From a virus, in IMG/VR virus record IMGVR_UViG_3300042914_001817, positions 1 to 25,277 of that record: DNA of 25,277 bases, one strand, 5' to 3'. Under the pieces are notes generated by a model. That model saw only the letters and a list, made by a program, of their open reading frames with translations, searched no databases and had not been told where the DNA came from. Each line of letters begins with the position of its first letter. Within the stretch, counting starts at the first letter, position 1. The translations under genes and the position numbers were made by a program. Below, piece by piece: positions 1 through 21,729 of the stretch.

Positions 1-55
1 TCTTATTCCGCCGACATTTTGGGGAGGCGTATCGGCGTGTCGCCTGTGAGGTGTA

Positions 56-892: not shown

Positions 893-914
893 TGTCAGAC
901 CCCCCTGCTAGACT
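893..914 (+). promoter_or_regulatory. promoter, TGTCA-N11-TAGACT class with extended -10
   Basis: TGTCA (893-897), 11 nt, TGC-TAGACT (-10 at 909-914). No -35 is visible at 17 nt (CCCAAT). It drives the gene at 945. Confidence 0.65.
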
Positions 915-944
915 TACTAAATAACAAAACGAAAGGAAGTCAAA

Positions 945-1142
945 ATGACTTACACTATGACACTAGAAACCTTCAATGGTTCTACTAAAAAAATTAGCCT
1001 GCCTTCTAAAGGTGCGGTTGCTCAATTCATAACAACTTACCCAAGCCAACTACCTGTCGGCGTAGCGGTAAAAGTATCCTGCGACACTCTCGCAATTCGT
1101 GGCACAATTCGTGGCACACTTATCCCAACAAACTCAAACTAA
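945..1142 (+). CDS. hypothetical protein, 65 aa
   Basis: ATG after GAAAGGAAGTCAAA. The product (MTYTMTLETFNGSTKKI...) is rich in Thr and beta-branched residues with one Cys; C-terminally it carries the internal doublet IRGTIRGT. No family recognised. It begins an apparent operon running through the genes at 1160, 1423, 1611 and 1678, with 17-nt or overlapping junctions. Confidence 0.8.
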   Translation: MTYTMTLETFNGSTKKISLPSKGAVAQFITTYPSQLPVGVAVKVSCDTLAIRGTIRGTLIPTNSN

Positions 1143-1159
1143 GAATAGGAAAATAATAA

Positions 1160-1423
1160 ATGACTAACACAAATTTCAAAAACTATCCCTTCAATTTCAA
1201 GGGCATAAACTTTATTTCAAAAGTAGATACCACTCACCCTATCTACAACGCAATTAGCAAACTAACTGAACAAGAATTCGTGAATATAAATTCAATGGCT
1301 CTTTCAGAATATCTTTCAGATGTAGAAATTTCAATTGATAACCTTCAACAAATTCAAGATGAACTAAACAAACTAAACGACGGTGGAACTTATGCGTTTA
1401 TTGCATTAGGAGAAAATAAGTAA
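1160..1423 (+). CDS. hypothetical protein, 87 aa
   Basis: The frame starts MTNTNFKNYPFNFKGINF and runs to GENK. The ATG follows AATAGGAAAATAATAA, a weak GGA-type ribosome binding site 17 nt after the previous stop. A helical second half (NLQQIQDELNKLND) suggests a compact soluble protein. The stop TAA overlaps the next ATG by one base (TAATG), implying translational coupling. Codon use is markedly A-rich (many AAA, AAC and CAA), more so than in the gene before it. Function unknown. Confidence 0.8.
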   Translation: MTNTNFKNYPFNFKGINFISKVDTTHPIYNAISKLTEQEFVNINSMALSEYLSDVEISIDNLQQIQDELNKLNDGGTYAFIALGENK

Positions 1424-1614
1424 TGATGACTAGAAAAGACTATATCAAAACTTCAAACATTCTAAAAGGATTTGCTGATGAAATTCATCCGCAAGTTTTT
1501 GAAGATTTAGTTGAAGAATTCGCACAATACTTTCAAGCAGATAACGAAAGATTTGATAAAGCAAAATTCGAAAAGGCTTGCGGAATTGACGAGTTAGGAC
1601 TAATACCAGCATGA
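1423..1614 (+). CDS. hypothetical protein, 63 aa
   Basis: It starts MMTRKDYIKTSNILKGF at TAATGATG; the second ATG (1426) is an equally possible start. An acidic helical core (FEDLVEEFAQYF) follows. The pattern MTRKDYxxxxxIL...F..YF..DN..FD..KF..AC is familiar from small uncharacterised phage proteins, but no function is known to me. It is coupled to the preceding and following genes by start-stop overlaps. Confidence 0.8.
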   Translation: MMTRKDYIKTSNILKGFADEIHPQVFEDLVEEFAQYFQADNERFDKAKFEKACGIDELGLIPA

Positions 1615-1697
1615 GCAGATTTCTAACAACACTTGTTCAAATTTCTTTGTTGCTTTCTATTTATTGGATAATTAGAATTGCCAAAAAAGAAATTTAG
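1611..1697 (+). CDS. single-span membrane peptide, 28 aa
   Basis: ATGA overlap with the previous stop. The product MSRFLTTLVQISLLLSIYWI continues with RIAKKEI: a short polar N-terminus, about 17 hydrophobic residues and a Lys-rich end. This is the layout of a single-pass inner-membrane peptide with its basic end in the cytoplasm. Such miniproteins in phages often modulate host membrane functions, but nothing specific can be claimed. The overlap-coupled position supports expression. Confidence 0.55.
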   Translation: MSRFLTTLVQISLLLSIYWIIRIAKKEI

Positions 1698-1773
1698 ATT
1701 TGAAACATGTAAGGTCTGCGGTAGAATTTTTATCGCAGATCTAAAATGTTTTGTGTGCGCTGCTAAACAATAA
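1678..1773 (+). CDS. zinc-ribbon-like miniprotein, 31 aa
   Basis: TTG start inside the end of the previous gene, in another frame. The product is PKKKFRFETCKVCGRIF followed by IADLKCFVCAAKQ, giving two CxxC pairs (C-K-V-C and C-F-V-C) 14 residues apart, as in rubredoxin-knuckle or zinc-ribbon peptides. No ATG is available, so the TTG is uncertain, but the conserved zinc spacing in such a short frame argues it is coding. Similar short CxxC...CxxC peptides occur at 2225 and 13270. Confidence 0.45.
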   Translation: MPKKKFRFETCKVCGRIFIADLKCFVCAAKQ

Positions 1774-1803
1774 TTGAAATTTCAACAAAAAGCCCCCGTG
1801 GGG

Positions 1804-1824
1804 TTTTCCACAGGTTTATCCACA
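1804..1824 (+). promoter_or_regulatory. direct pair of DnaA-box-like sequences
   Basis: TTTTCCACA (1804-1812) and TTATCCACA (1816-1824) in the same orientation, 12 bp start to start, followed 10 bp later by a CRP-like palindrome. Confidence 0.55.
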
Positions 1825-1833
1825 GGGCGATTT

Positions 1834-1849
1834 TGTGATATTTATCACT
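1834..1849. promoter_or_regulatory. CRP/GlxR-like palindrome
   Basis: TGTGATATTTATCACT, one mismatch to TGTGA-N6-TCACA. A weaker half-matching site TGTGATTTTTCCCACA follows at 1861-1876. The 205-nt gap 1774-1978 thus carries the DnaA pair, this site, a TGTCCGATTTGT motif and a promoter, and no gene. Confidence 0.55.
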
Positions 1850-1893
1850 TTACGCAGCGATGTGATTTTTCCCACAAAAATATTTTTTCAAAA

Positions 1894-1905
1894 TGTCCGA
1901 TTTGT
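1894..1905 (+). repeat. TGTCCGATTTGT motif
   Basis: The same 12-mer as at 336 and 4291, 14 nt upstream of the -35 box at 1919. Confidence 0.5.
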
Positions 1906-1918
1906 TATGATTTTCGAT

Positions 1919-1947
1919 TTGAAAATGTCAGACCAAAATGATAGGCT
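1919..1947 (+). promoter_or_regulatory. promoter with -35, TGTCAGAC in spacer, extended -10
   Basis: TTGAAA (1919-1924), 17-nt spacer containing TGTCA (1926-1930), TGA-TAGGCT (-10 at 1942-1947). TGTCA is 11 nt from the -10, as in the other members. Confidence 0.7.
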
Positions 1948-1978
1948 GGAAGCCTAGAAAGTAAGAAAGGAGTTTTCA

Positions 1979-2176
1979 ATGAGAAGTTATTCAATTGAAG
2001 ATTTATTAGTAGGACAATTTTACAGACCTACTTCGTTGGCTCGCCGTTATCAAGGTGGAGAAATAAACTACGCTACTAAGCGTGATGACATTTGGGTAGG
2101 AGAGAATTTTCAAGCCTACGCTATTCGCTTCAATGGTCATAAATGGGCGACTATTGCGGTCAGGGTGTCCGACTAA
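1979..2176 (+). CDS. hypothetical protein, 65 aa, paralogue of the gene at 664
   Basis: The start follows AAGAAAGGAGTTTTCA. The product begins MRSYSIEDLLVGQFYRPTSL and ends WATIAVRVSD. It aligns with the 664 protein at the N-terminal [IV]E[SD]LL[IV]G..YR block and the C-terminal TIAVRVS/IVAVSVA block. Both copies have their own regulated promoters, which suggests duplication followed by separate control. Function unknown; a small beta-barrel is plausible. Confidence 0.8.
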   Translation: MRSYSIEDLLVGQFYRPTSLARRYQGGEINYATKRDDIWVGENFQAYAIRFNGHKWATIAVRVSD

Positions 2177-2177
2177 A

Positions 2178-2199
2178 TGTCAGACCCCAATGCTAGGAT
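2178..2199 (+). promoter_or_regulatory. promoter, TGTCA-N11-TAGGAT class
   Basis: TGTCA (2178-2182), 11 nt, TGC-TAGGAT (2194-2199); no clear -35 hexamer at 17 nt. It overlaps the region just after the preceding stop codon. Confidence 0.65.
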
Positions 2200-2224
2200 T
2201 AGAAAAGAAAGAAAGGATAACTAA

Positions 2225-2413
2225 ATGAAAACTAATATGTCGCTTAGAGAAATTGAAGATTTAGGTTTCTCACTTCAGGATAATATCTGCGTGTTTTGTT
2301 CAGCAACAATGAATAAGGAAATGCGAATTTGCTTCGGTTGCGGAGAATATAAAGGTGTAATAAATATTGTTGAGGCAGTAGGATACTATGGAAAGGAAGT
2401 TCTACCACTATGA
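2225..2413 (+). CDS. zinc-ribbon-like small protein, 62 aa
   Basis: ATG after GAAAGGATAACTAA. Residues about 22-25 give C-V-F-C and residues about 37-40 give C-F-G-C (ICFGCGEYKG), a two-knuckle zinc ribbon. Small zinc ribbons in phages often bind nucleic acid or host RNA polymerase, but no specific family is recognised. The C-terminus ends at an ATGA overlap with the next gene. Confidence 0.75.
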   Translation: MKTNMSLREIEDLGFSLQDNICVFCSATMNKEMRICFGCGEYKGVINIVEAVGYYGKEVLPL

Positions 2414-2568
2414 AAAAAAATGTTCTAATTAGTTTTGTTACTGAGGCTGATACCGATTTACAGGCGGTATTCAACCTAAATAAAATTTTGTTCCAATTGT
2501 CTGATAGCGATTTGGTAAAATTTGATGTTTTTGATGTTGTTGAGTGTGACGGAGTAGGAGTAAAGTAA
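2410..2568 (+). CDS. hypothetical protein, 52 aa
   Basis: It starts at ATGA overlapping the previous stop. Product MKKNVLISFVTEADTDLQAV... continuing to ECDGVGVK; its stop abuts the next ATG with no gap. The N-terminal beta strand followed by an acidic helix and another strand suggests a small ferredoxin-like fold. No homologue recognised. Its place between two coupled genes supports translation. Confidence 0.7.
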   Translation: MKKNVLISFVTEADTDLQAVFNLNKILFQLSDSDLVKFDVFDVVECDGVGVK

Positions 2569-3066
2569 ATGGGATTAGATATGTATCTTCATGCTAAGAA
2601 GTATGTTGAAAAAATCGACTGGACTAAGTTAGATCGAGATAATGGTCTAGGTATGGATAGTCCAGAAGTGGTAAATCCACTTTGGAATGAAATTGTCGAT
2701 ACCGCTGGAATGTCAGATGTCGCTACCGATATCTATGGCGTTCATGTTGAAGTAACTTGTGCCTATTGGCGTAAGTCTAATCAAATTCATAAATGGTTTG
2801 TTGATAATGTTCAAGGCGGTAACGATAACTGCGGTGAATACTATGTTTCTAATGAGAAACTAAATCAACTTAGAGAAACTTGTCGTCAAGCCTTATTTGC
2901 TAAAGACCCTTCACTATTGCCACCACAGGCAGGATTTTTCTTTGGCTCATACGATATAGATGAATGGTATTGGCAGGATATCAAGGACACTATCAAGAAA
3001 ATCGACAGAGTTTTGGCTCTGCCCGATATGTCCAAATTGTCCTTTTACTACACTTCATCGTGGTAA
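2569..3066 (+). CDS. conserved phage hypothetical protein (MGLDMYL family), 165 aa
   Basis: The product begins MGLDMYLHAKKYVEKIDW. It carries AYWRKSNQIHKWFVDNVQ (residues about 66-83), then a CGEYYVS block and the segment LLPPQAGFFFGSYDIDEWYW. I know this combination (MGLDMYL, YWRK-N-IH-WFV, EYYVS, GFFFGS, D-YYW-D) as a widespread uncharacterised family of phage and bacterial proteins. The conserved aromatic and charged blocks look enzymatic or ligand-binding, but no activity is established that I know of. It is translationally coupled to 2410-2568. Confidence 0.85.
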   Translation: MGLDMYLHAKKYVEKIDWTKLDRDNGLGMDSPEVVNPLWNEIVDTAGMSDVATDIYGVHVEVTCAYWRKSNQIHKWFVDNVQGGNDNCGEYYVSNEKLNQLRETCRQALFAKDPSLLPPQAGFFFGSYDIDEWYWQDIKDTIKKIDRVLALPDMSKLSFYYTSSW

Positions 3067-3080
3067 AGGCTTCGGGGGAT

Positions 3081-3109
3081 TTGATTTTGTCAGTCCCCCA
3101 TGATAGGCT
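3081..3109 (+). promoter_or_regulatory. promoter with -35, TGTCAG in spacer, extended -10
   Basis: TTGATT (3081-3086), 17-nt spacer containing TGTCA (3088-3092), TGA-TAGGCT (3104-3109). It drives the run of genes from 3138 to 4245. Confidence 0.7.
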
Positions 3110-3137
3110 CTAGGTATTGAACGAAAGGAAATGAAAA

Positions 3138-3350
3138 ATGGATAAATTAGAATACGCACTAAGGACTATTGCTAACTGCGACCTATGCTACGGCAAGGGT
3201 TATCAAGGTTGGGCTAATGGCGAGGACTTTGATATTGAGGACTGCGAGTGTAATATTTATGGAATTATTTTAGATGATGACGGCTCAGTAATCTATGATA
3301 ATGGTTTGCTAAGTGAGCCAGAATTATTTTTGACTAGAGAGGCTAACTAA
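3138..3350 (+). CDS. Cys-rich hypothetical protein, 70 aa
   Basis: ATG after GAAAGGAAATGAAAA. Residues about 14-17 give CDLC, followed by the GKGYQGW segment, and residues about 36-38 give CEC (IEDCECNIYG). The CxxC-x-GKG pattern resembles the DnaJ-type CxxCxGxG zinc motif, but only one full and one partial copy are present. The rest is acidic. It may be a small zinc protein; function unknown. One base separates it from the next gene. Confidence 0.75.
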   Translation: MDKLEYALRTIANCDLCYGKGYQGWANGEDFDIEDCECNIYGIILDDDGSVIYDNGLLSEPELFLTREAN

Positions 3351-3351
3351 A

Positions 3352-3651
3352 ATGGGAAGTAATTTTGCTAACGAAATGGCTAGTGGCGTGTTAGATGATT
3401 TAGGTATTCACTTAGATTTGGAAACTCAGATAGGAATTCACTTGTCGTCTAATCACTATCCGCCAGTGCCTAAATTTATGGTTCCAATTTGTATTGAAGC
3501 GATAGATGCCGTCAATGATGCGGGACTTTGGGATTTAGAAATTCCTATGCCTGAAGGAGTGACCTATAAAGGTTTGACTGCTGCGCCAGCATGGGCTATT
3601 ATTGAACAACACCACTTACAGGCTTGGCTAATTGAAAGAGAGGAAGTCTAA
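3352..3651 (+). CDS. conserved actinophage-type hypothetical protein, 99 aa
   Basis: Product MGSNFANEMASGVLDDLGIH..., with the segment LSSNHYPPVPKFMVPICIEA (about 31-50), an LPEGV-like MPEGVTYKG and a C-terminal HLQAWL. The block SSNHYPPVP...MVP.CIEAIDA is one I associate with small uncharacterised proteins common in actinobacteriophages. No enzymatic motif is obvious. The stop overlaps the next ATG by one base. Confidence 0.8.
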   Translation: MGSNFANEMASGVLDDLGIHLDLETQIGIHLSSNHYPPVPKFMVPICIEAIDAVNDAGLWDLEIPMPEGVTYKGLTAAPAWAIIEQHHLQAWLIEREEV

Positions 3652-3791
3652 TGAAATTTGATGAAATGCTAGGAAAGGTGCTTGAAATATTCCCTGAAGC
3701 ACTATTCCATGATGATGAAACAGGTGAGGTAGTAATCTCAACAGGCTTCAGACTTGTAAATGACGAATTAGTAGCAATGGAGGAAATCTAA
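3651..3791 (+). CDS. conserved phage hypothetical protein, 46 aa
   Basis: TAATG start-stop overlap with the previous gene and GAGAGGAAG as ribosome binding site. Product MKFDEMLGKVLEIFPEALF, then an acidic turn and STGFRLVNDELVAMEEI. The MKFDxML.KVLE..P.A...dd.tGe..I.T...l pattern is familiar from actinophage genomes. One base separates its stop from the next ATG. Function unknown. Confidence 0.8.
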   Translation: MKFDEMLGKVLEIFPEALFHDDETGEVVISTGFRLVNDELVAMEEI

Positions 3792-3792
3792 A

Positions 3793-4002
3793 ATGGAATA
3801 CACTTATTCACTTACCACTTCCTATGACGGAAGCCTTGTAAATACCCTGCGAGTTTCAGACTTACTTGAAGCCGTAAATGCGTGGGATAAATGCGTAGAC
3901 TTTGGCGATGCTAATGAATACGCAACCTATAATCTTTCAGACCCAACAGGAAAAATGTATACTAAAACTTTTTATCGTAATGGAGAGGTAGTGGTGCGCT
4001 AA
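3793..4002 (+). CDS. hypothetical protein, 69 aa
   Basis: ATG after GGAGGAAATCTAAA, which lies inside the end of the previous gene. Product MEYTYSLTTSYDGSLVNTLR... ends FYRNGEVVVR; alternating strands and one helix (VSDLLEAVNAWDKCV) suggest a small alpha/beta fold. No family recognised. Its stop directly precedes the next ATG. Confidence 0.8.
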   Translation: MEYTYSLTTSYDGSLVNTLRVSDLLEAVNAWDKCVDFGDANEYATYNLSDPTGKMYTKTFYRNGEVVVR

Positions 4003-4245
4003 ATGTCTGATACAATAAATAGCATGAAGTTAGTTCCAGCGGATCTACTAAAGCCAGACCAACTAATGGAGGGCGACCTAATAAAAATCGGTGAAGATAT
4101 TGTAGAAGTAATTGAAATATCTAGCGATGGCGCTGCCGATAATTGGTTTATTGAAACTAAAGATGAGTTTGGTGAAAAAGAAACTTTTACTTTTCACTAT
4201 ACTGAATCTATTCCGCTTTATGTATTTATTGAAACAATGGAATAA
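4003..4245 (+). CDS. SH3/KOW-like hypothetical protein, 80 aa
   Basis: It starts directly after the previous stop. Product MSDTINSMKLVPADLLKPDQ, then EGDLIKIGEDIVEVIEI and a five-strand pattern through FIETKDEFGEKETFTFHYTE. The L-x-P-x-D-L...G-D-x-I-x-I...V-x-V pattern resembles small SH3-fold phage proteins that govern 'level and duration' type processing or nucleic-acid binding; this is fold-level inference only. Last gene before a hairpin and a regulatory gap. Confidence 0.75.
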   Translation: MSDTINSMKLVPADLLKPDQLMEGDLIKIGEDIVEVIEISSDGAADNWFIETKDEFGEKETFTFHYTESIPLYVFIETME

Positions 4246-4254
4246 ATAAAAAGT

Positions 4255-4280
4255 ATTTTGTGTGCTTCCCCGCACAAAAT
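4255..4280 (+). terminator. hairpin after the 3138-4245 operon, terminator-like
   Basis: ATTTTGTG (4255-4262) pairs with CACAAAAT (4273-4280) across a 10-nt C-rich loop. It stands 10 nt after a stop codon, with an A-rich upstream side but no T tract downstream, so termination on the plus strand would be weak. Confidence 0.4.
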
Positions 4281-4290
4281 GCCCCCGTGC

Positions 4291-4302
4291 TGTCCGATTT
4301 GT
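4291..4302 (+). repeat. TGTCCGATTTGT motif
   Basis: Same 12-mer as at 336 and 1894, 15 nt before a CRP-like half-perfect palindrome. Confidence 0.5.
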
Positions 4303-4316
4303 ACCAATTGTTCTCA

Positions 4317-4332
4317 TGTGTTTAAGATCACA
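4317..4332. promoter_or_regulatory. CRP/GlxR-like palindrome
   Basis: TGTGTTTAAGATCACA, one mismatch to TGTGA-N6-TCACA, upstream of the promoter at 4363. Confidence 0.5.
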
Positions 4333-4362
4333 TTAAAAAGCCCCCCGAAATCTCCCCCTGGA

Positions 4363-4391
4363 TTGAAATTGTCAGTCGCTTCTGATAAGAT
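4363..4391 (+). promoter_or_regulatory. promoter with -35, TGTCAG in spacer, extended -10
   Basis: TTGAAA (4363-4368), 17 nt containing TGTCA (4370-4374), TGA-TAAGAT (4386-4391). Confidence 0.7.
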
Positions 4392-4416
4392 TATTTATCT
4401 AAACGAAAGGCAAGAA

Positions 4417-4689
4417 ATGTTATCAACCGCATTAGCAATACAGACCGCAACAAAAGACGCAGTTCATGACGAGGAAGTTATGGGAATGGCGTCTGCTATA
4501 TTTCACCATAGAAACGAAATGAGCGATGAAGCATTTGCTCAAGCAATGTATATGTATTCTGCTCATCTATCAGCGATGACTGCTACTCTAGTTACTCATG
4601 CCTGCTTGACTGAAAGTCAGATAGGCGATATGCTAGAAACTATCAAAGAATTTGACTCACTAGGAAAGGACATAACAAATGGAAACTAA
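4417..4689 (+). CDS. helical hypothetical protein, 90 aa
   Basis: I use the ATG after AAACGAAAGGCAAGAA; an in-frame ATG 53 codons earlier (4258) would run through the hairpin, the CRP-like site and the promoter. The product is almost wholly helical (MLSTALAIQTATKDAVHDEE ... MYMYSAHLSAMTATLVTHA), Met/Ala-rich and acidic, ending DITNGN. The middle of the protein has HHRNEMSDEAFAQAMYMYSAHLS-like heptads. No family recognised. It overlaps the next gene by 11 nt. Confidence 0.75.
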   Translation: MLSTALAIQTATKDAVHDEEVMGMASAIFHHRNEMSDEAFAQAMYMYSAHLSAMTATLVTHACLTESQIGDMLETIKEFDSLGKDITNGN

Positions 4690-5119
4690 TGAAACAGTAG
4701 CGCCTGAGCATTATAACCCCAACCAACTCGTAACCTATAAAGTTATTGAGAGTGGTACTGCAAAATATCCAACTGTAAAGGTTGTAGATCTTGAATGGGA
4801 TTTACATCAGAATCGTTCGAATGTTGCAAACCTATCTCAATATATTTCTAAAGTAAATCAGTTAGAGAATCAACTTGCTAACTATCTTGAAATGGATTCA
4901 GAAGAAATTGTTTCAGATATTTGTAGCATCTTTGGATTCAATCCAACTAAGGAAATTGAATTTGAAGCAACTGCAACAATTACTGGTCGTGTATTAGTTG
5001 CACTATCAGACCTTGCAAACTTTGATATTGATGACATTGATTTGACTGTTTATGCAGATTCACACTCACATGATGTTGAAGTTGATGTGGAGGTTGACCA
5101 CATTAGTCGCATAGACTAA
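4679..5119 (+). CDS. hypothetical protein, 146 aa
   Basis: ATG 11 nt inside the previous gene, with GGAAAGGACATAACAA as its ribosome binding site. Residues 1-30 form an extended start, 40-75 a likely coiled helix (SNVANLSQYISKVNQLENQL), and 95-146 a beta-rich acidic tail with alternating D/E and V/H (HSHDVEVDVEVDH). The C-terminal pattern E-x-E-A-T-A-T-I-T-G-R-V recalls small phage proteins of unknown role. The acidic, coiled build fits a DNA-mimic or scaffold as well as anything; not resolved. Confidence 0.8.
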   Translation: METNETVAPEHYNPNQLVTYKVIESGTAKYPTVKVVDLEWDLHQNRSNVANLSQYISKVNQLENQLANYLEMDSEEIVSDICSIFGFNPTKEIEFEATATITGRVLVALSDLANFDIDDIDLTVYADSHSHDVEVDVEVDHISRID

Positions 5120-5127
5120 AAAAAAGA

Positions 5128-5154
5128 CCTGAGCAAGTCTATAAACTGCTCCTG
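5128..5154 (+). repeat. 3'-UTR hairpin repeat, copy 1
   Basis: CCTGAGCAAG...TAAACTGCTCC: GAGCA (5131-5135) pairs with TGCTC (5147-5151), 11 nt apart, a few nt after a stop codon. Copies at 6773, 7294 and 8631. Confidence 0.6.
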
Positions 5155-5165
5155 CCCACGGGCGG

Positions 5166-5181
5166 TGTGATCTTTATCACA
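5166..5181. promoter_or_regulatory. CRP/GlxR-like palindrome
   Basis: TGTGATCTTTATCACA, perfect TGTGA-N6-TCACA, ending 9 nt upstream of the -35 box at 5191, an activator-type distance. Confidence 0.65.
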
Positions 5182-5190
5182 TTTGAGATT

Positions 5191-5219
5191 TTGACATTTT
5201 TTTGTGTTTATGATAAGAT
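5191..5219 (+). promoter_or_regulatory. sigma70-like promoter, leaderless start
   Basis: TTGACA (5191-5196), 17 nt, TGA-TAAGAT (5214-5219); the ATG at 5226 lies 6 nt after the -10. Confidence 0.75.
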
Positions 5220-5225
5220 TATTTT

Positions 5226-5375
5226 ATGAAGAAAACACCAGAGGAATTACGCAGGCTTATGGAATTACGCCGTAGCAATGCTGCCTCTGCCGTACCCTCA
5301 AAAAAGAAATACAATAGAAAGAAAAGTCAGTCCTCGCTGATACAATTGAGGAAAGAAAGGGCCCCCCATGACTAA
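5226..5375 (+). CDS. basic small protein, 49 aa, leaderless mRNA
   Basis: The ATG sits 6 nt after a -10 box and has no ribosome binding site, so its mRNA should be leaderless. The product starts MKKTPEELRRLMELRRSNAA, followed by a Lys/Arg-rich segment (PSKKKYNRKKSQSS) and LIQLRKERAPHD. Strongly basic: a nucleic-acid-binding role is likely by composition only. It overlaps the next gene by 8 nt; the GAAAGAAAGG ribosome binding site of the Gp88-like gene lies in its last codons, which couples the two. Confidence 0.75.
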   Translation: MKKTPEELRRLMELRRSNAASAVPSKKKYNRKKSQSSLIQLRKERAPHD

Positions 5376-6090
5376 ACTAAAACGCTCTAATGATAGGAAA
5401 GTGGCTAATGCTGTATCAAAAAACGGAAAGACCCCAACAATTGCCAACACTTTTGGATTGCCTAGTGGTAAGGCTTACTCATGTCCTGGTGAAACCTCTG
5501 TATGCAGCAAAGTATGCTACGCAGGAAAACTCGAAAAGATCTACAAAGGTGTAAGAGATAATCTATTACACAATTGGAATTTACTAAAAGACGCTAACTA
5601 TGAAGAGATGTATGACTTACTTTCTGCAATGATAAAAGAGTTTATTGTTGATTGTGAAAAGAAAGACGCTCCTAAACTATTCCGCATTCACTGGGACGGA
5701 GATTTCTTCAATGATGAATACGCAAGGGCCTGGAAGCATGTCATTCTAAATAATCCTGATGTTCAATTCTGGGTATACACTAGAGTGAAATCTGCTGCCC
5801 TAATTCTCAAGGGTATGGATAATTTGTCTCTATACTACTCTGCAGATAGCGAAAATGTCAAAACTGCTGTAGACCTAAAACTAAATCATGGTGTACGCAT
5901 GGCATACCTTGCACAAAACTTTGCAACTGGTAAAGCAGATGTAAAAGAAATGATTGGAAGACCTGCTGCTAAGTGTCCTGAAAATGCAAAACAAATTCCA
6001 CTAATCTCAACTAAGGGCTCGGCTTGCGTTTCTTGCTCACTTTGTGTATACTCTAAGAGCGACATAATTTTCTCTGCGAGTAAGAAATGA
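5368..6090 (+). CDS. Gp88-like phage protein, Cys-rich, 240 aa
   Basis: ATG behind GAAAGAAAGGGCCCCCC. The product resembles the 'gene product 88' family of actinobacteriophages. Visible blocks are SGKAYSCPGETSVCSKVCYA (Cys at 39, 46 and 50), RIHWDGDFFNDEYARAW (about residues 110-126), a FWVYTRVKSA strand, LSLYYSADSEN and a terminal C-VSC-SLC cluster (Cys 220, 223 and 226). The alternating strands and helices with 'HWDGDFF' and 'YYS-DS' loops look like a TIM-barrel, and the Cys sets could hold an Fe-S cluster or zinc. The canonical radical-SAM CxxxCxxC is absent (C46-x3-C50 lacks the third Cys). Function is unknown in the family. Confidence 0.85.
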   Translation: MTKLKRSNDRKVANAVSKNGKTPTIANTFGLPSGKAYSCPGETSVCSKVCYAGKLEKIYKGVRDNLLHNWNLLKDANYEEMYDLLSAMIKEFIVDCEKKDAPKLFRIHWDGDFFNDEYARAWKHVILNNPDVQFWVYTRVKSAALILKGMDNLSLYYSADSENVKTAVDLKLNHGVRMAYLAQNFATGKADVKEMIGRPAAKCPENAKQIPLISTKGSACVSCSLCVYSKSDIIFSASKK

Positions 6091-6095
6091 GATAA

Positions 6096-6158
6096 ATGGA
6101 TACCAAACAAGTTATTTTATTATTGATGTTTTTATTTATTTTCTTTTTATATCAGTGA
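6096..6158 (+). CDS. single-span membrane peptide, 20 aa
   Basis: MDTKQVILLLMFLFIFFLYQ: four polar residues and then an unbroken hydrophobic segment. It lies 5 nt after the Gp88-like gene in the same transcript. The ribosome binding site is weak (GAGATAA). Its extreme shortness makes coding status uncertain, although small membrane peptides recur at 1611, 10864, 16546 and 18675. Confidence 0.4.
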   Translation: MDTKQVILLLMFLFIFFLYQ

Positions 6159-6258
6159 AAGGGCGGCACGTCCGCAAAATCTTTGGTTTGTCAAGTCATT
6201 ATAATGTGATTATAAACACTTTATAAATCCCCCCGCAGATCCCCGCTGAATTGTATTT

Positions 6259-6287
6259 TTGACATTTTTCTGCTAGACTTATACTAT
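6259..6287 (+). promoter_or_regulatory. sigma70-like promoter
   Basis: TTGACA (6259-6264), 17 nt, TACTAT (6282-6287). An alternative -10, TGC-TAGACT at 6274-6279, matches the extended boxes elsewhere but lies only 9 nt from the TTGACA. The upstream part of this 160-nt gap (6159-6258) shows no gene, only a TTGTCA/TATAAT-like stretch near 6190-6206. Confidence 0.55.
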
Positions 6288-6318
6288 AAGAAATAACCCC
6301 ACAACGAAAGGAAACACA

Positions 6319-6489
6319 ATGACCCTCGGAGGATACACTTATCAGATTGGTGACCTATTCACCACCAGCAAGACAGGCGTTACAGGTCGTATCGCAAGTT
6401 TCGCACCAATGTCTAACAGTGTTACTAGAGTTAGTCTTGTCTTGGCAAATGGCTCTCGCCGTTTGGCTATGGTAAAGACCAGCAAGTAA
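6319..6489 (+). CDS. small beta-barrel-like protein, 56 aa, first tandem copy
   Basis: ATG after AACGAAAGGAAACACA. Product MTLGGYTYQIGDLFTTSKTG, then VTGRIASFAP and a strand-rich C-terminus RVSLVLANGSRRLAMVKTSK. It is a paralogue of the next gene: Y-x-[VI]-G-D-x-[FY]-T-T-x-K-[ST]-x-V-T-G is shared. The V-T-G-x-I...V-x-L...N-G-x-[SR]-R pattern suggests an SH3/KOW-like barrel, a fold often used for RNA or protein binding. Similar small proteins are common in actinophages. Function unknown. Confidence 0.8.
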   Translation: MTLGGYTYQIGDLFTTSKTGVTGRIASFAPMSNSVTRVSLVLANGSRRLAMVKTSK

Positions 6490-6520
6490 TCTCAAAATGT
6501 GAGAAATGTCAGACCTAGAT

Positions 6521-6549
6521 TTGACATTTTTCTACAATAATGTCATAAT
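6521..6549 (+). promoter_or_regulatory. sigma70-like promoter
   Basis: TTGACA (6521-6526), 17 nt, CATAAT (6544-6549). TTGACATTTTTCT and the leader CAATAACCCC...CACAATG repeat those of the preceding gene, so promoter and gene were duplicated together. A TGTCAGAC lies just upstream (6508-6515). Confidence 0.65.
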
Positions 6550-6588
6550 TATACAATAAGCAATAACCCCTAACAGAAAGGCAACACA

Positions 6589-6753
6589 ATGTCAGTAGCA
6601 ACAGCAACATACAAGGTAGGCGACACCTACACCACACAGAAGTCAAAGGTCACAGGAGTAATCACAGAGATTACACCACAAGCCAATGGTAATGTTCGTG
6701 TGAAACTTGATGTCAATGGTAAGTCACGCTATACCACTTGGACAGCAAAGTAA
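6589..6753 (+). CDS. small beta-barrel-like protein, 54 aa, second tandem copy
   Basis: ATG after AACAGAAAGGCAACACA. Product MSVATATYKVGDTYTTQKSK, VTGVITEITPQANGNVRVKL, then DVNGKSRYTTWTAK. It is closely related to the 56-aa protein just upstream and has a near-identical leader and promoter, so the pair arose by tandem duplication. The V-R-V-K-L-D-V-N-G-x-S-R strand-turn-strand is the best conserved part of this family as I remember it from actinophages. Role unknown; an SH3-type barrel is plausible. Confidence 0.85.
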   Translation: MSVATATYKVGDTYTTQKSKVTGVITEITPQANGNVRVKLDVNGKSRYTTWTAK

Positions 6754-6772
6754 TTCCTAATACAGGAAAAGT

Positions 6773-6799
6773 CCTGAGCACGACTACTAAAACTGCTCA
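6773..6799 (+). repeat. 3'-UTR hairpin repeat, copy 2
   Basis: CCTGAGCA (TGAGCA 6775-6780) pairs with TGCTCA (6794-6799), 13-nt loop, 20 nt after the stop of the 54-aa gene and just before the next promoter. Confidence 0.6.
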
Positions 6800-6806
6800 A
6801 CAAGAT

Positions 6807-6828
6807 TGTCAGCGCAAAGTGCTAGACT
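6807..6828 (+). promoter_or_regulatory. promoter, TGTCA-N11-TAGACT class
   Basis: TGTCA (6807-6811), 11 nt, TGC-TAGACT (6823-6828); the position 17 nt upstream of the -10 (ACAAGA) is not a -35. Confidence 0.65.
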
Positions 6829-6858
6829 AAATACCCCACAAACGAAAGGACAGACCCA

Positions 6859-7284
6859 ATGGCAAGAGGACAAAAAGCCATTAGTGTAAAGATTGCTACA
6901 ACCAAAGTAATCAAGGCACTAGAAACTAAGTTAGACCAAATCAAGAAAGATAAGGCTAACCAAAAAACTAACGAGGAGAAGTATCAGAAGGCTTACGAAA
7001 AGTGGCTAAAAGATGTTGCTAAACTTTCTCTCGCTCAAATCTCAAAGGCAGAAAACCTACGAGCAAGTGTTCGCTATAATGGCAACATAAATGTAGATTT
7101 TGATTTGCCTAAGTCTGCGGTAGCAGATTTCCCTGCTGAACCTGAAAAGGATTTTGAGACTTTTCACGATTGGCAATACAAGGAAATGGTAGAAGAAATT
7201 GAGAACGCAATTCGTATTCTCAAGATGACAGATGAGGAAGTAGTTTCCACATCTACTTACAACGCTATCGCAAGATACTTGTAA
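6859..7284 (+). CDS. coiled-coil hypothetical protein, 141 aa
   Basis: ATG after AAACGAAAGGACAGACCCA. Product MARGQKAISVKIATTKVIKA, a long Lys/Glu-rich helix over residues about 20-60 (LETKLDQIKKDKANQKTNEE...), a middle strand segment with VRYNGNINVDFDLP, and an acidic C-terminal helix ending STYNAIARYL. The family is familiar from actinophage genomes as a conserved hypothetical. The helix-strand-helix layout suggests a small DNA- or protein-binding dimer; no activity can be assigned. Confidence 0.8.
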   Translation: MARGQKAISVKIATTKVIKALETKLDQIKKDKANQKTNEEKYQKAYEKWLKDVAKLSLAQISKAENLRASVRYNGNINVDFDLPKSAVADFPAEPEKDFETFHDWQYKEMVEEIENAIRILKMTDEEVVSTSTYNAIARYL

Positions 7285-7293
7285 TAAAACTTT

Positions 7294-7318
7294 CCTGAGC
7301 AAGAAATAAAACTGCTCA
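7294..7318 (+). repeat. 3'-UTR hairpin repeat, copy 3
   Basis: TGAGCA (7296-7301) pairs with TGCTCA (7313-7318) across 11 A-rich nt, 11 nt after a stop codon. Nearly identical to copy 4 at 8631. Confidence 0.65.
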
Positions 7319-7461
7319 CCAATAAAACTAAATAAAATTGGGTGACAGCCTGCGTTCAAGGCAGATCTATCTGCGAAAGTCCCCTGGCACTCCCTAACAC
7401 CTGAGTATGGAGGAAATCCTTTAGTGTCTAAACTGCTCCACCTCAAAATCCCCCCGTGCCG
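7319..7461 (+). other. structured intergenic stretch, possible small RNA
   Basis: No convincing gene on either strand. It holds short hairpins GCAGA-TCTA-TCTGC (7361-7374) and TTTAG-TGT-CTAAA (about 7421-7433), plus a degenerate copy of the CCTGAG...ACTGCTCC hairpin repeat (about 7400-7440) with a longer insert. Composition is less A-rich than the neighbouring noncoding DNA. A minus-strand frame here is probably chance. Confidence 0.35.
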
Positions 7462-7481
7462 TTATCCACAGGTTATCCACA
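7462..7481 (+). promoter_or_regulatory. direct pair of perfect DnaA boxes
   Basis: TTATCCACA at 7462-7470 and 7473-7481, both perfect and spaced 11 bp (one helical turn). Two bp later a CRP-like palindrome begins. Confidence 0.65.
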
Positions 7482-7483
7482 GG

Positions 7484-7499
7484 TGTGAATTTGATCACA
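7484..7499. promoter_or_regulatory. CRP/GlxR-like palindrome
   Basis: TGTGAATTTGATCACA, perfect half sites, between the DnaA pair and TGTCCGATTTAT (7509-7520). Confidence 0.6.
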
Positions 7500-7508
7500 T
7501 TTACGATA

Positions 7509-7520
7509 TGTCCGATTTAT
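7509..7520 (+). repeat. TGTCCGATTT motif
   Basis: TGTCCGATTTAT, one base different from the 12-mers at 336, 1894 and 4291. Confidence 0.45.
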
Positions 7521-7541
7521 CCCTTATCTAACTATCCAGAT

Positions 7542-7570
7542 TTGCATTTGTCAGACTAGACTGCTATACT
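7542..7570 (+). promoter_or_regulatory. promoter with TGTCAGAC in spacer, extended -10
   Basis: TTGCAT (7542-7547), 17 nt containing TGTCA (7549-7553), TGC-TATACT (7565-7570). It drives the DUF932-like gene. Confidence 0.7.
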
Positions 7571-7602: not shown

Positions 7603-8619
7603 ATGGCACATGACCTAGAAACACAAAACGGCAAGACATCTTTCGCATCTTTCCGTGAACCCGCATGGCATGGATTGGGTACTGTCTTTACAGAAGAAAA
7701 AACAACTGCAGAAATGCTAGAGGCTGCAAACCTCAATGGTTGGAATGTTCGTCTTGAAGATATGTCTATTCCATCTCATCTAACAAGCGACAAGCAATAC
7801 CAATATGTTGTTCGCACTAACCCTACCGATAACACACAAACCGACATTCTTGGTGTCGTTGGTGAGCGTTATCATGTTCTGCAGAATGAAGACCTATTTT
7901 CATTCGGTGATAATATTCTTGACGGCGGAGGTCGTTGGGAAACTGCTGGTGCAATCAAGGGTGGTCGTGTTGTATTCGGCTCACTTGCACTAGAGCGTGA
8001 AACCGTATTAGACCCTAGCGGTGTTGCAGATAAGGTAAAGACTTATCTTCTCATCAATACCTCACATGACGGCTCAATCGCTATTCAAGCATCAATCACA
8101 CCTGTTCGTGTTGTATGCGCTAATACTCTCAATCTTGCACTAGGTGGCAAGAAAAAGAAGAATGGCATCAAGCAATCATTCAAGATTCGCCACACACAAA
8201 CTGCCAATGGTAAAGTGCAGATTGCTCGTGAAACTCTTGGTCTTGCTAATGCATACATGGACGAATTCGACATCATGGCTAAGGCTATGTTCGAGAAGGA
8301 AGTCAATGCTCAACAATTCAATGACATCATTCTTGCTGCGTATCCAAAGCCTGATAAAGATGCTAAGGGTTCAATCAAGAAGTGGGAAAACAAGGTTGAT
8401 GTTATCAATGACATCTATACTGGCGAATTCAATGGTATGATTGCTGGTAATGCTTGGGGTGCTTTCAATGCACTAACCGAACGCCTTGATTGGTATCGTA
8501 CCGCAAGAGGTGGTTCTAACGAATCAATTCTTGCATCTGCGAGTGGATTTGACCCTGCTATCAATGCAGAAAAAAATCGTTTGCTAAAAGTTGTGCAAAA
8601 TGTAATGCAGATTGCATAA
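7603..8619 (+). CDS. DUF932 / phage-plasmid-like protein (TIGR03299 type), 338 aa
   Basis: ATG after AATAAGGAGAAAAACTC. Recognisable family blocks are a start MAHDLETQNGKTSFASFREP followed by AWHGLGTVF (about 23-31), then VVGERYHVLQNEDLFSFGD (about 84-102), AIKGGRVVFGSLAL and the STPVRVVCANTLNLAL-like ITPVRVVCANTLNLALGG (about 164-181), ending with a helical half carrying LTERLDWYRTARGGSN. The length is normal for TIGR03299/DUF932, a family carried on phages and plasmids with no settled function. It stands alone in its transcription unit, behind the richest regulatory region of the window (DnaA pair, CRP-like site, TGTCCGA motif) and ahead of a repeat hairpin. Confidence 0.92.
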   Translation: MAHDLETQNGKTSFASFREPAWHGLGTVFTEEKTTAEMLEAANLNGWNVRLEDMSIPSHLTSDKQYQYVVRTNPTDNTQTDILGVVGERYHVLQNEDLFSFGDNILDGGGRWETAGAIKGGRVVFGSLALERETVLDPSGVADKVKTYLLINTSHDGSIAIQASITPVRVVCANTLNLALGGKKKKNGIKQSFKIRHTQTANGKVQIARETLGLANAYMDEFDIMAKAMFEKEVNAQQFNDIILAAYPKPDKDAKGSIKKWENKVDVINDIYTGEFNGMIAGNAWGAFNALTERLDWYRTARGGSNESILASASGFDPAINAEKNRLLKVVQNVMQIA

Positions 8620-8661: not shown

Positions 8662-8737
8662 GGTTCCGTAGATTAGTCTGGTTTAAATCGCTACACTGTC
8701 ACTGTAGAGATCGTGGGTTCAAATCCCATCGGAATCG
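8662..8737 (+). tRNA. tRNA-Asp (GTC)
   Basis: Cloverleaf by eye: acceptor GGTTCCG/CGGAATC (one G-T), D stem GATT/AATC, anticodon stem CTACA/TGTAG with loop CTGTCAC (anticodon GTC at 8698-8700), and T arm GTGGG-TTCAAAT-CCCAT. The discriminator is G. CCA is not encoded. It is probably co-transcribed with the DUF932-like gene, since no promoter is visible in the 42-nt gap. Confidence 0.9.
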
Positions 8738-8760
8738 CAAAGAAAATCGGGACGTGGGGA

Positions 8761-8894: not shown

Positions 8895-9056
8895 ATGACC
8901 CAAACATACAAACCATACACCATAGATGAACTGGTGACAGAAATCTATGAGGACAACCTGTCACACTTTGAATTTGAGGAAAACATGGGTGGAGAGCCCT
9001 GTGACTGCTATCTACATAACACTATGAATACTATCATGAAATACTGGGGGGAATAA
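8895..9056 (+). CDS. acidic hypothetical protein, 53 aa, leaderless mRNA
   Basis: No ribosome binding site; the ATG lies 6 nt after a -10 box. Product MTQTYKPYTIDELVTEIYED, then NLSHFEFEENMGGEPCDCYL, HNTMNTIMKYWGE. It holds a C-D-C pair and is acidic. The final codons carry the GGGGGAATA ribosome binding site of the next gene, and the TAATG overlap couples them. It begins a four-gene set (8895-9694). Function unknown. Confidence 0.75.
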   Translation: MTQTYKPYTIDELVTEIYEDNLSHFEFEENMGGEPCDCYLHNTMNTIMKYWGE

Positions 9057-9256
9057 TGAACCAACTAATTGAATATATAAAGATACATATCATTAGCCTA
9101 GAGCAAGACCTAGAGCAAATCTCTAATGAAATGGAAGCACTTGACCCTGCCTCTAAGGATTATACTGAGTTAGATTTTGAATATAATCATATGAGTGGAC
9201 AACTTCTTTCTGCCCGCCATATTTTGTCAGTGGCCGACGGTATACTAGAGGTATGA
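9056..9256 (+). CDS. coiled-coil hypothetical protein, 66 aa
   Basis: TAATG overlap with the previous gene and GGGGGGAATA as ribosome binding site. Product MNQLIEYIKIHIISLEQDLE... is mostly one helical hairpin (residues 3-35 and 40-63) with acidic heptads. It overlaps the next gene by ATGA. Function unknown; a structural or adaptor role in a small complex is as far as the sequence goes. Confidence 0.8.
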   Translation: MNQLIEYIKIHIISLEQDLEQISNEMEALDPASKDYTELDFEYNHMSGQLLSARHILSVADGILEV

Positions 9257-9540
9257 TGAACACTACACAACTAGAACCAAGACTGCAGAAACTAATAGAC
9301 CTAGGGGAATCAGGCACTGACATCCTCCATGGTGAACTCAAAAACCTTATGTATGAGGCTGAAAAGGAATTGATTGAGGCCCAACGCATTGAGGAAGACA
9401 ATGACTACAGCGACGCCATGGAATCTATGGAGCGAAAGTACTGGGAGGGACAGTTAGACGCTATGTCTCATGTATATGGTTTGACCTATGCCCTGGCCTT
9501 TGCAATCTCAGAGCGAAGGAGCAAGCAATCTAATGAGTGA
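9253..9540 (+). CDS. helical hypothetical protein, 95 aa
   Basis: ATGATG start overlapping the previous stop (9253 or 9256 both possible). Product MMNTTQLEPRLQKLIDLGES, an acidic helix YEAEKELIEAQRIEEDND, then MERKYWEGQLDAMSHVYGLT. The EGQLDA-x-x-x-x-YxLTYALAFA segment resembles helical phage proteins of unknown role. It shares its 3' end with the start of the next gene. Confidence 0.8.
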   Translation: MMNTTQLEPRLQKLIDLGESGTDILHGELKNLMYEAEKELIEAQRIEEDNDYSDAMESMERKYWEGQLDAMSHVYGLTYALAFAISERRSKQSNE

Positions 9541-11853: not shown

Positions 11854-12014
11854 AATCGCCCGTGCCATACTTTTATCTGTTTGTCAAACCTTCAAACCTT
11901 ATTACGAAAAGGCATTACGAACCCCTAAACCGTAGCCCCCACTGAAAGATTACGATCCAAACCTTTATATCCCCAAACCTTATACCATGGATATCCTGGT
12001 TTGTCAAATAGGTG

Positions 12015-12020
12015 TATAAT
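12015..12020 (+). promoter_or_regulatory. -10 box, leaderless start
   Basis: TATAAT followed by 6 nt (TGTATT) and the ATG at 12027. No canonical -35 lies at 17 nt, but TTGTCA occurs 8 nt upstream of the -10. Confidence 0.55.
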
Positions 12021-12026
12021 TGTATT

Positions 12027-12257
12027 ATGCCAAGACACTTTGCAAACCTTTATAGCCAGAGATCTCATAGGCATGACTCTAAAAGAGATTACGATCAATT
12101 CACTGAAGACATGAATACTCTAACAGGTATGTTGTATTCTATTGTTACCCTTAAGGGTTTCTTTCCTTTCTTTAGATCCCCCGCCAAAAACGCAGATCTT
12201 GCGGGCGGGCCCGCTCCCTATCCTACCCCGCTCGAAAATGCGGGGGATAAAGAGTAA
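12027..12257 (+). CDS. hypothetical protein, 76 aa, leaderless mRNA
   Basis: I prefer the ATG 6 nt after TATAAT over an in-frame ATG 15 nt earlier, because that one would lie upstream of the transcript start. Product MPRHFANLYSQRSHRHDSKR, then an acidic segment, a hydrophobic stretch GMLYSIVTLKGFFPFFR and a Pro/Gly-rich tail. It encodes one CAAACCTT repeat and one ATTACGA. The tail coincides with an unusually GC-rich patch (12,180-12,245, CCGCC/GCGGG). The gene is plausible but composed partly of repeat DNA. Function unknown. Confidence 0.5.
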   Translation: MPRHFANLYSQRSHRHDSKRDYDQFTEDMNTLTGMLYSIVTLKGFFPFFRSPAKNADLAGGPAPYPTPLENAGDKE

Positions 12258-12402
12258 CCAAACTACCCCCTATAGAATAACAAACCTTTTCTCCTGGTTT
12301 CCTATATATTTTATAAAGTTTTGTTAAAAAACATTACGATATTGGCAAATTTTCCCCTGGTTTTGGTAGATTTTTATGGGCAATTTCATGCATATAAGAC
12401 AC
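12258..12402. other. noncoding stretch
   Basis: AT-rich, one CAAACCTT and one ATTACGA, no gene supported. A minus-strand frame across 12334-12576 contains the repeats and has no ribosome binding site or -10 box. Confidence 0.4.
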
Positions 12403-12431
12403 TTGACAAACCACTATTTTGCATGTATAAT
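12403..12431 (+). promoter_or_regulatory. perfect consensus sigma70 promoter without an obvious gene
   Basis: TTGACA (12403-12408), 17-nt spacer, TG-TATAAT (12426-12431): both hexamers perfect with an extended -10. The next 250 nt contain CAAACCTT repeats and DnaA boxes but no clear gene, only a 23-codon frame from the ATG at 12478. It may drive a noncoding or origin-priming RNA. Confidence 0.75.
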
Positions 12432-12624
12432 GCCCAAACCTTATATCAGGATATGATGGTTTGACAATATCGGGCATATGTGGTACAAAGGTTTGAAGGT
12501 TTGGGATATGAAGGTTTTTCGATTTGACATTACGAACGCCATATGGTAAAGGGTTCCCTACTCCACTATCCTCCACAATCCTCCACTTTAACCCTATCTA
12601 ATAATATCATCAGTAACATTTTTC

Positions 12625-12645
12625 TGTGGATAAACCTGTGGATAA
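12625..12645 (-). promoter_or_regulatory. direct pair of perfect DnaA boxes (reverse orientation)
   Basis: TGTGGATAA at 12625-12633 and 12637-12645, 12 bp apart, ending 5 bp upstream of the -35 box of the next gene. Confidence 0.65.
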
Positions 12646-12650
12646 CATAC

Positions 12651-12678
12651 TTGACAAACCATCCAAACCAGATATAAT
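12651..12678 (+). promoter_or_regulatory. consensus promoter, leaderless start
   Basis: TTGACA (12651-12656), 16 nt, TATAAT (12673-12678), 6 nt, ATG at 12685. Confidence 0.8.
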
Positions 12679-14415: not shown

Positions 14416-14997
14416 ATGGAAAATTTCAACAAAATCTACTTAGAAGAAAATATCTTTTACATAGAAAATTTTATATCAGATACTGACATAGAAGAGGTTC
14501 TTGCTAATGTCGGATCTTGGACTCTCAGAAGACAAGATCATCATGAAAAGATATCATTTTCTATATTTGAGTCAGAAGAGGCGATTAATAAATTTAAAAA
14601 ACTCGTCGAGGATAAAGTTTCTATTGTAACAAACAATAAAGATCAAAAACTAAGAAAGATATCCATGTTGCAAAAATATAGCCCTACCGACTCATCTCCA
14701 TTGGCTTTAGGGTATCACTACGAAAACCACCCAGAATGTGATTACGAATCTAGATGGATCACCCTTGGTGTTGTACTATACCTAAATGATGGATACGCAG
14801 GTGGAGAGTTAATATTTGAACACAAACCTATTGAGTTTGCCCCTAAGAAGGGAACACTAATAGTGTTTCCAGCAAGTGAAGAATATAGTCATGCTGTAAA
14901 ACAGGTCACAGGCAAGGATCGTATTGTATATTCTGCATTCGTATATGCTAAACAATATTGGGACATATTAAATAGAGCAGGGTTTACTGACTTTTAA
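14416..14997 (+). CDS. 2-oxoglutarate/Fe(II) dioxygenase-like protein, 193 aa
   Basis: The product begins MENFNKIYLEENIFYIENFI, the 'helix-before-barrel' start of prolyl-4-hydroxylase-like oxygenases. The core has LGYHYENHPECDYESRWITL (His101-Tyr-Glu103; a second HxE at 105-107), then VVLYLNDGYAGGELIFEH, PKKGTLIVFPASEEYSHAV with the distal His159, and Arg169 in KDRIVYSAF. The order H-x-E/D, YLND-GGE, GTLIVFPA, S-H, R matches P4H/2OG-Fe oxygenases. The acid is Glu instead of the usual Asp, which is allowed in some active homologues but should be verified. It is one of eight such genes here. Substrate unknown. Confidence 0.85.
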   Translation: MENFNKIYLEENIFYIENFISDTDIEEVLANVGSWTLRRQDHHEKISFSIFESEEAINKFKKLVEDKVSIVTNNKDQKLRKISMLQKYSPTDSSPLALGYHYENHPECDYESRWITLGVVLYLNDGYAGGELIFEHKPIEFAPKKGTLIVFPASEEYSHAVKQVTGKDRIVYSAFVYAKQYWDILNRAGFTDF

Positions 14998-15538
14998 TAG
15001 CATTATCAAGAAACATCTGCAAAGTAACTCTTAGGTTATTACCTAAAACTGGGGTTGTATAGTGCAATTCAAACTTATCGTTGTAGACCAATAGCCCACG
15101 CTTAGGGGTTATTATGTTCCACTCTTGAGTCTGTTCATCCTTGTAGTGAAACATACCACCGTTATTAATACTCCACTCTTGGTTAAGATATACTGTTATT
15201 GGCTTTCTGCTATCTCCTACTTTGCCATCCTTATGAGGAGGTATATAGGATCCAGGGGTAAATAGGGTTACCTGTGCACCCACAGCATCACCTTTCTTTA
15301 TAATTCCAAGGTCAATCAACTCATCTGATATTAAATCACACAACAAATCAGGGACTATGTAGAGTATGGCTATGTGACTGTGCTCTCTTACATTTTCAGG
15401 CCAAGACATATTCGTAGTGGTTACAACTGGATTGGGGTATCCAAACTTAGATATTTCTGAGGCATTATAGTAACTCATAGCAAAATTGTATAGTTCCTCA
15501 CACAGGCTATCGCTAAGGCCTTTATCGTATATCTTCAC
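14984..15538 (-). CDS. 2-oxoglutarate/Fe(II) dioxygenase-like protein, 184 aa
   Basis: GTG start, with a TACAAT -10 box five nt upstream and no ribosome binding site. The barrel is complete: TPGSYIPPHKDGKVGD (His102-Lys-Asp104), VYLNQEWSINNGGMFHYKDE, ITPKRGLLVYNDKFELHYT (His159), then a strand with Arg170 (NNLRVTLQMFL). Proper HxD...H...R suggests catalytic competence. It overlaps the end of the convergent oxygenase gene 14416-14997 by 14 nt. It may be a relative of DNA/RNA- or lipid-directed 2OG oxygenases; the sequence shows only the fold. Confidence 0.85.
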   Translation of the reverse strand: MKIYDKGLSDSLCEELYNFAMSYYNASEISKFGYPNPVVTTTNMSWPENVREHSHIAILYIVPDLLCDLISDELIDLGIIKKGDAVGAQVTLFTPGSYIPPHKDGKVGDSRKPITVYLNQEWSINNGGMFHYKDEQTQEWNIITPKRGLLVYNDKFELHYTTPVLGNNLRVTLQMFLDNAIKSQ

Positions 15539-15541
15539 GCC

Positions 15542-15856: not shown

Positions 15857-15883
15857 GTCTTTATTATACCCCGTCGAAAATGA

Positions 15884-16513: not shown

Positions 16514-16545
16514 TTATCTATTGTATCATAGGGTATAATTAATAT

Positions 16546-16641
16546 ATGAATGAACAAAAAATAAAACAAAGCGTTAGGGCTTTAACAGTCCTATTTGGAA
16601 TATTTATTGCCGTAACCATAATTGCAGCCATATTTGCTTGA
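16546..16641 (+). CDS. single-span membrane peptide, 31 aa, leaderless mRNA
   Basis: ATG 6 nt after TATAAT (16534-16539). Product MNEQKIKQSVRALTVLFGIF, then IAVTIIAAIFA. A basic N-terminus (K5, K7, R11) and 19 hydrophobic residues: an inner-membrane span with its basic side in the cytoplasm. Its TGA stop lies inside the -35 box of the next promoter, which shows how tightly the region is packed. Function unknown. Confidence 0.65.
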   Translation: MNEQKIKQSVRALTVLFGIFIAVTIIAAIFA

Positions 16642-16666: not shown

Positions 16667-16672
16667 AGTAGT

Positions 16673-17200: not shown

Positions 17201-17238
17201 ATTTTCCGCCAAAATTTAAAACATGATATAATCTAGAT

Positions 17239-21728: not shown

Positions 21729-21729
21729 T

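Follow-up and report, generated by a model that had tools for sequence, protein, structure and literature searches.

Candidate RecA-NDp-type promoters, probably driven by host PafBC, in a gene module of a large tailed phage presumed to infect freshwater acI actinobacteria

In a 25,277-nt stretch of viral DNA (record IMGVR_UViG_3300042914_001817, positions 1 to 25,277; this whole stretch is referred to below as the window) a series of promoters carries TGTCA, here called the −26 element, exactly 11 nt ahead of a TANNNT −10 box. We consider it quite likely that these are RecA-NDp-type (PafBC, −26) promoters belonging to a large tailed phage with freshwater acI actinobacteria as its hosts, and that they would be driven by the PafBC activator of the host, often with the additional participation of host CRP. 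The motif, its spacing and base preferences, its position at promoters, the occurrence of the same element at recA of the presumed hosts and the host genes for PafB, PafC and CRP are direct observations. The promoter type itself is already known from bacterial repair genes; in the open-access literature (subscription journals were not covered) we found no description of PafBC promoters in phages, and no match in that literature to a repeated use of RecA-NDp promoters, with phased CRP sites, as the organising principle of a phage module.

We counted 12 copies of the motif TGTCA-N11-TANNNT in the window, compared with a mean of 1.40 and a maximum of 5 in 100 dinucleotide shuffles of the same DNA, none of which reached 12; at spacings other than 11 the same scan yielded 0–6 matches. 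An earlier note on this DNA had described eight such promoters and argued that their common spacing is not due to chance; all eight were found where it had placed them, and the shuffles bear the argument out. These eight and one further site at 9225 look like real promoters, while the matches at 9675 (minus strand), 16508 and 17372 (minus strand) lack a G after TGTCA and are probably due to chance. In the 115-kb record of a 100% identical relative (G001) the convincing sites are restricted to approximately 27.1–36.4 kb. Including a tenth site clipped by the left edge of the window, they occupy about 9 kb of the ~115-kb phage genome, and the virion genes of G001 are located outside this region. 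By megablast, none of the named phages matched the window.

With the DUF932 gene that follows the promoter at 7549 as the anchor, 80 related IMG/VR contigs were gathered. Counts across these relatives are non-independent observations; the spacing control escapes this problem in its logic, because longer or shorter forms of the element would be equally heritable. TGTCA was followed by TANNNT 733 times at a spacing of 11 versus 58–241 times at other spacings, TGTCG peaks at the same distance (94 versus 10–56 elsewhere) and TGTCC shows no peak (39 at spacing 11), the fifth position at this spacing being preferably A or G, weakly T and not C. A ribosome-binding site and a start codon follow 342 of the 556 unique TGTCR-N11-TANNNT sites; at most other spacings they follow about 5–10% of the sites, and the weaker peaks at the exceptional spacings of 6, 16, 17 and 19 consist in part (35–58%) of recounted N11 sites possessing a second TANNNT. 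Equal frequency in coding or shuffled DNA, named beforehand in the earlier note as the outcome that would count against the element, was thus not what we observed. The logo of the unique sites reads W-W-TGTC[A87/G13]-G78-T52 followed by TGN-TANNNT, with G in 78% of the sites at the first position after TGTCR, T in 52% at the second, and C (48%) or G (32%) at the third. The motif was also considered as a trait of a wider phage group and rejected as such, there being no TGTCR-TANNNT spacing peak in DSL-LC01 (all 129 kb) or in 30 kb each of the Streptomyces BE-type phages Bmoc and Jay2Jay (Stanwilliamsviridae); the latter two resemble the phage of the window in size, in their many small single-gene units, in encoding ribonucleotide reductase and in having a DUF932 protein (~52% identical) encoded close to the left end.

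In mycobacteria the genes of the DNA-damage response have a promoter in common, tTGTCRgtg-8nt-TannnT (RecA-NDp, recA P1), which is PafBC-dependent (PMC5656591), and promoters of this type are also present in other Actinobacteria (PMC8223512; PMC5087735). PafBC is activated by single-stranded DNA; PafB touches the −26 motif and PafC touches domain 4 of SigA, in place of the −35 contact (PMC11804915). As far as sequence comparison can tell, the phage element is of this actinobacterial RecA-NDp/PafBC type: the TGTCR core with its purine preference, the position at promoters, the G following the core and the weak or absent −35 agree, and the gtg plus 8 nt of RecA-NDp equal the 11 nt separating the phage element from TANNNT. 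The differences are that the phage has about 10 copies in one region, that GTG is often replaced by GAC or GTC, and that the phage copies possess a strong TGN extended −10 and often, further upstream, a phased CRP palindrome. Neither the window nor any of 30 related phage records showed a WYL domain, and therefore the activator, if it is PafBC, is that of the host.

The presumed hosts of the motif-bearing phages are acI actinobacteria (Nanopelagicales). One bacterial contig with an 85% identical DUF932 belongs to a metagenome-assembled genome (MAG) labelled Actinomycetota; the genomes of its family measure 0.9–2.2 Mb and have WYL genes in 81 out of 81 cases, mostly as neighbouring (tandem) pairs. 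In one of these pairs (L121) the proteins match PafB (7p5x, 9fnd, 6sj9) and PafC (7p5x) with E values of 2e-30 and 2e-22. Six 16S genes of the family contain the site of probe AcI-852, which we take to be acI-specific. At recA an SOS box GAAC-N4-GTTC is present in 29 of 30 loci, and in 9 of the 30 presumed-host genomes TGTCR-N11-TANNNT ends directly before it, in the same way as RecA-NDp stands beside a LexA box; other strict host sites were located upstream of a DEDD exonuclease/UvrC-like gene and of SOS-box genes. The suggestion of the earlier note that TGTCA takes part in recognition by a phage-modified polymerase found no support, the element matching a known host promoter type that is present at recA of the presumed host.

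Three other explanations appear less likely than reading by PafBC. The phage itself may encode the reader of TGTCAG, an activator or a protein of some other family that binds RNA polymerase, the likeness to RecA-NDp then representing captured promoter logic. The majority of genes in this phage are without a functional assignment, and the phage version (TGTCAGAC/TC, with its strong extended −10) is slightly unlike the strict host version, but recA and other repair genes of the host, on which no phage protein acts, have the same core at the same spacing, and the phages also have full GTG versions. Taken with the lack of WYL proteins in the 30 phage records, this makes such a reader improbable. 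The second possibility is that the acI RNA polymerase itself recognises the element as an ordinary part of the core promoter, by a spacer contact made by SigA alone and free of any activator. It would agree with the occurrence of the element in both host and phage, with the small additional requirements of extended −10 promoters and with constitutive use, which would fit early phage genes. The strict host copies, however, stand at DNA-damage genes beside SOS boxes and not at housekeeping genes generally, and the published structure assigns the element to PafB (PMC11804915); we regard this explanation as very unlikely.

The relation of the element to the −35 box bears on its function. The earlier note had listed four promoters with a TTGNNN hexamer at 17 nt, and all four hexamers are present (TTGAAA at 1919 and 4363, TTGATT at 3081, TTGCAT at 7542). 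Among the DUF932 promoters of the 80 viral relatives and of one further phage contig (L097), 73 of 81 have TGTCR at 11 nt, two have TGTCT, and the six having neither carry a TTGAC[AT] −35 box; the tree requires at least four switches between the −26 class and the TTGACA class. TTGAC at 17 nt was found in 1 of 250 extended −10 promoters with the −26 element versus 35 of 311 without it (Fisher 9e-9; the rows are not independent). These data suggest that the −26 element tends to stand in for a good −35, which is the outcome expected of an activator taking over the −35 contact, and the hundreds of −26 promoters may represent a natural collection in which the −35 is freed from selection.

The third alternative, that TGTCA is the operator of a phage repressor as in the stoperators (TGTCAAG) of L5-type mycobacteriophages, has in its favour the shared asymmetric TGTCA core, the overlap of the sites with the promoter and one weak CI-like match (ORF, open reading frame, 6859; E 0.0067; not every phage gene was scanned), but L5 stoperators are bound by a repressor and keep no fixed distance to a −10, while an IMG/VR-wide contig scan with TTGTCAGTGG-N4-TGN-TATACT gave 55 matches at the exact register and 0 at both +1 and −1 nt, TGTCAAG is not clearly enriched in the window (8 versus 3.7 expected), the TGTCAG copies out of the −10 register are mostly intragenic, no repressor was identified among the phage genes scanned, and the accompaniment of a weak −35 suits activation and not repression; we reject this identity and consider a repressor site least probable of all. 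From the earlier proposal that TGTCA is read together with the extended −10, the part concerning a real, activator-read promoter class stands, and the comparison with stoperators falls.

The window contains far more CRP/FNR palindromes (TGTGATNNNNATCACA) than expected, and they precede both −26 and −35 promoters. In the relatives 153 of 250 −26 promoters (~60%) and 78 of 308 others have a palindrome at about −64.5, −74.5 or −85.5 relative to the predicted start, with 4% expected; a periodicity of approximately 10 nt is typical of class-I activation. A CRP-family helix-turn-helix protein is encoded in 12 of 12 presumed-host genomes (above the cut-off in 11), and none (HTH_Crp_2) was detected in 15 phage records. 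The host protein matches M. tuberculosis Rv3676 (PDB 3d0s, E 4e-77) and also the structures 4byy and 4cyd, which we take to be C. glutamicum GlxR. The arrangement resembles the CRP/GlxR class-I promoters of actinobacteria in the upstream TGTGA-N6-TCACA palindromes and their ~10-nt phasing, and differs from them in that the palindromes are phage-borne and coupled to a −26 element.

From these features we infer binding by PafBC and CRP, induction by single-stranded DNA, a timing within infection and a benefit to the phage. The housekeeping RNA polymerase with SigA would read the extended −10 (TGN-TANNNT), and the WYL-domain activator PafBC of the host, turned on by single-stranded DNA, would bind the TGTCR element via PafB, with PafC holding SigA domain 4 and thereby making a good −35 dispensable. 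Many of the promoters would in addition receive class-I-type activation from a CRP/GlxR dimer of the host bound near −64, −74 or −85. In this manner the phage would couple a cluster of small genes of unknown function, together with DUF932, to the DNA-damage signal of the host, which would rise when phage DNA enters, replicates or is attacked by nucleases; the possible benefit is more transcription while the phage DNA is being resected, attacked or replicated. The virus thus probably uses the damage response of its host to turn on its own genes. More tentatively, and with somewhat less than even confidence, we suggest that in lytic-type acI phages the whole module stands on dual-input promoters responding to single-stranded DNA or damage via PafBC and to cyclic AMP and energy status via CRP. 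If so, the phage would sense the processing or replication of its own DNA, or the attack by the host, as well as the nutrient state of the host, without a regulator of its own. Should the PafBC reading be true, an activator of the damage response that is itself activated by single-stranded DNA would be a part of phage gene control in acI, a dominant freshwater group that is hard to culture and whose phage biology is poorly known; it would also provide a testable rule by which acI phages and their promoters could be recognised from sequence.

Several observations weigh against the involvement of PafBC in acI hosts. The full GTG follows TGTCA in only two of the nine window sites, most having TGTCAGAC or TGTCAGTC, and at two thirds of the 30 host recA promoters examined the exact −26 match is missing. 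L097, the sole phage contig found within a host MAG, has TTGACA-type promoters without the −26 element, and therefore the host of the window's phage is deduced from relatives; the placement of L097 in the MAG may be a binning error. The reported need of PafBC for single-stranded DNA is not obviously compatible with promoters required to fire at once, and ClgR has likewise been reported at the P1 promoter (PMC5656591).

The individual −26/−10 promoters are arranged as follows. The only complete one on the minus strand (177–198, TGTCAGTGGTCTATGTTAGGAT) serves a leftward gene with its ATG near 149 and has a CRP-like palindrome (TGTGATGTCTATCACA, 237–252) centred at about −74.5. On the plus strand, the promoter at 893–914 (TGTCAGACCCCCCTGCTAGACT) precedes ORF 945–1142 and lacks a −35-like hexamer at 17 nt; those at 1926–1947 (TGTCAGACCAAAATGATAGGCT, weak −35 TTGAAA, palindrome TGTGATATTTATCACT upstream at 1834–1849) and 2178–2199 (TGTCAGACCCCAATGCTAGGAT) precede ORF 1979–2176 and ORF 2225–2413 with the subsequent genes, respectively. 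The promoter at 3088–3109 (TGTCAGTCCCCCATGATAGGCT, weak −35 TTGATT) stands before ORF 3138–3350, that at 4370–4391 (TGTCAGTCGCTTCTGATAAGAT, weak −35 TTGAAA) before an ORF starting from 4417, and that at 6807–6828 (TGTCAGCGCAAAGTGCTAGACT) before ORF 6859–7284. The DUF932 gene (7603–8619, plus strand; PF06067, phrog_1221) lies behind the promoter at 7549–7570 (TGTCAGACTAGACTGCTATACT, weak −35 TTGCAT). The palindromes of the promoters at 4370 and 7549 (4317–4332, about −73.5, and 7484–7499, about −85.5) each have one mismatch in the scanned motif. The ninth promoter (9225–9246, plus strand, TTTTGTCAGTGG-N8-TATACT) has the full RecA-NDp consensus and lies within the 3′ end of ORF 9056–9256; its predicted start coincides with the ATG of ORF 9253–9540, and therefore it is probably leaderless. 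The tenth, on the minus strand, is cut by the left edge of the window (1–16, TGTCGGCGGAATAAGA...) and is whole in G001 at 27162 on the minus strand (TGTCGGCGGGATAAGATAAGAT).

Further CRP/FNR-type palindromes are located at 313–328 and 5166–5181, with weaker ones at 45, 821 and 6205. Some tens of bases upstream of promoters, TGTCCGATTT occurs at 262, 336, 1894, 4291 and 7509 (five copies, 0.04 expected); in the relatives it lies mostly 30–40 nt ahead of the −26 element and is a candidate binding site. The sequence GGCGTGTCG at 34 and 592 (0.01 expected) is also present upstream of recA in most of the acI genomes examined and may be an intergenic signature common to host and phage.

A short hairpin, CTGAGCA-N9-11-ACTGCTC, is found between genes at 5129, 6774, 7295 and 8632 (0 expected) and also in L097; the fold of one copy has a z value of −4.0, the hairpin is without a T-run, and it may serve in RNA processing or stability. 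The phage has four tRNA genes at 8662–8738 and 21652–21879, namely Asp(gtc), Met(cat), Glu(ttc) and Arg(tct), and repeated stretches similar to GGTTTGTCAAA/TTTGACAAACC occupy a gene-poor region at 11870–12660. The right part of the window encodes a group of 2OG-Fe(II) oxygenase-like proteins, at least five in number (14984–18158 and 22950–24344), an APS-kinase/cytidylyltransferase-like fusion (21901–22659) and a glutathione-peroxidase-like protein (24386–25189).

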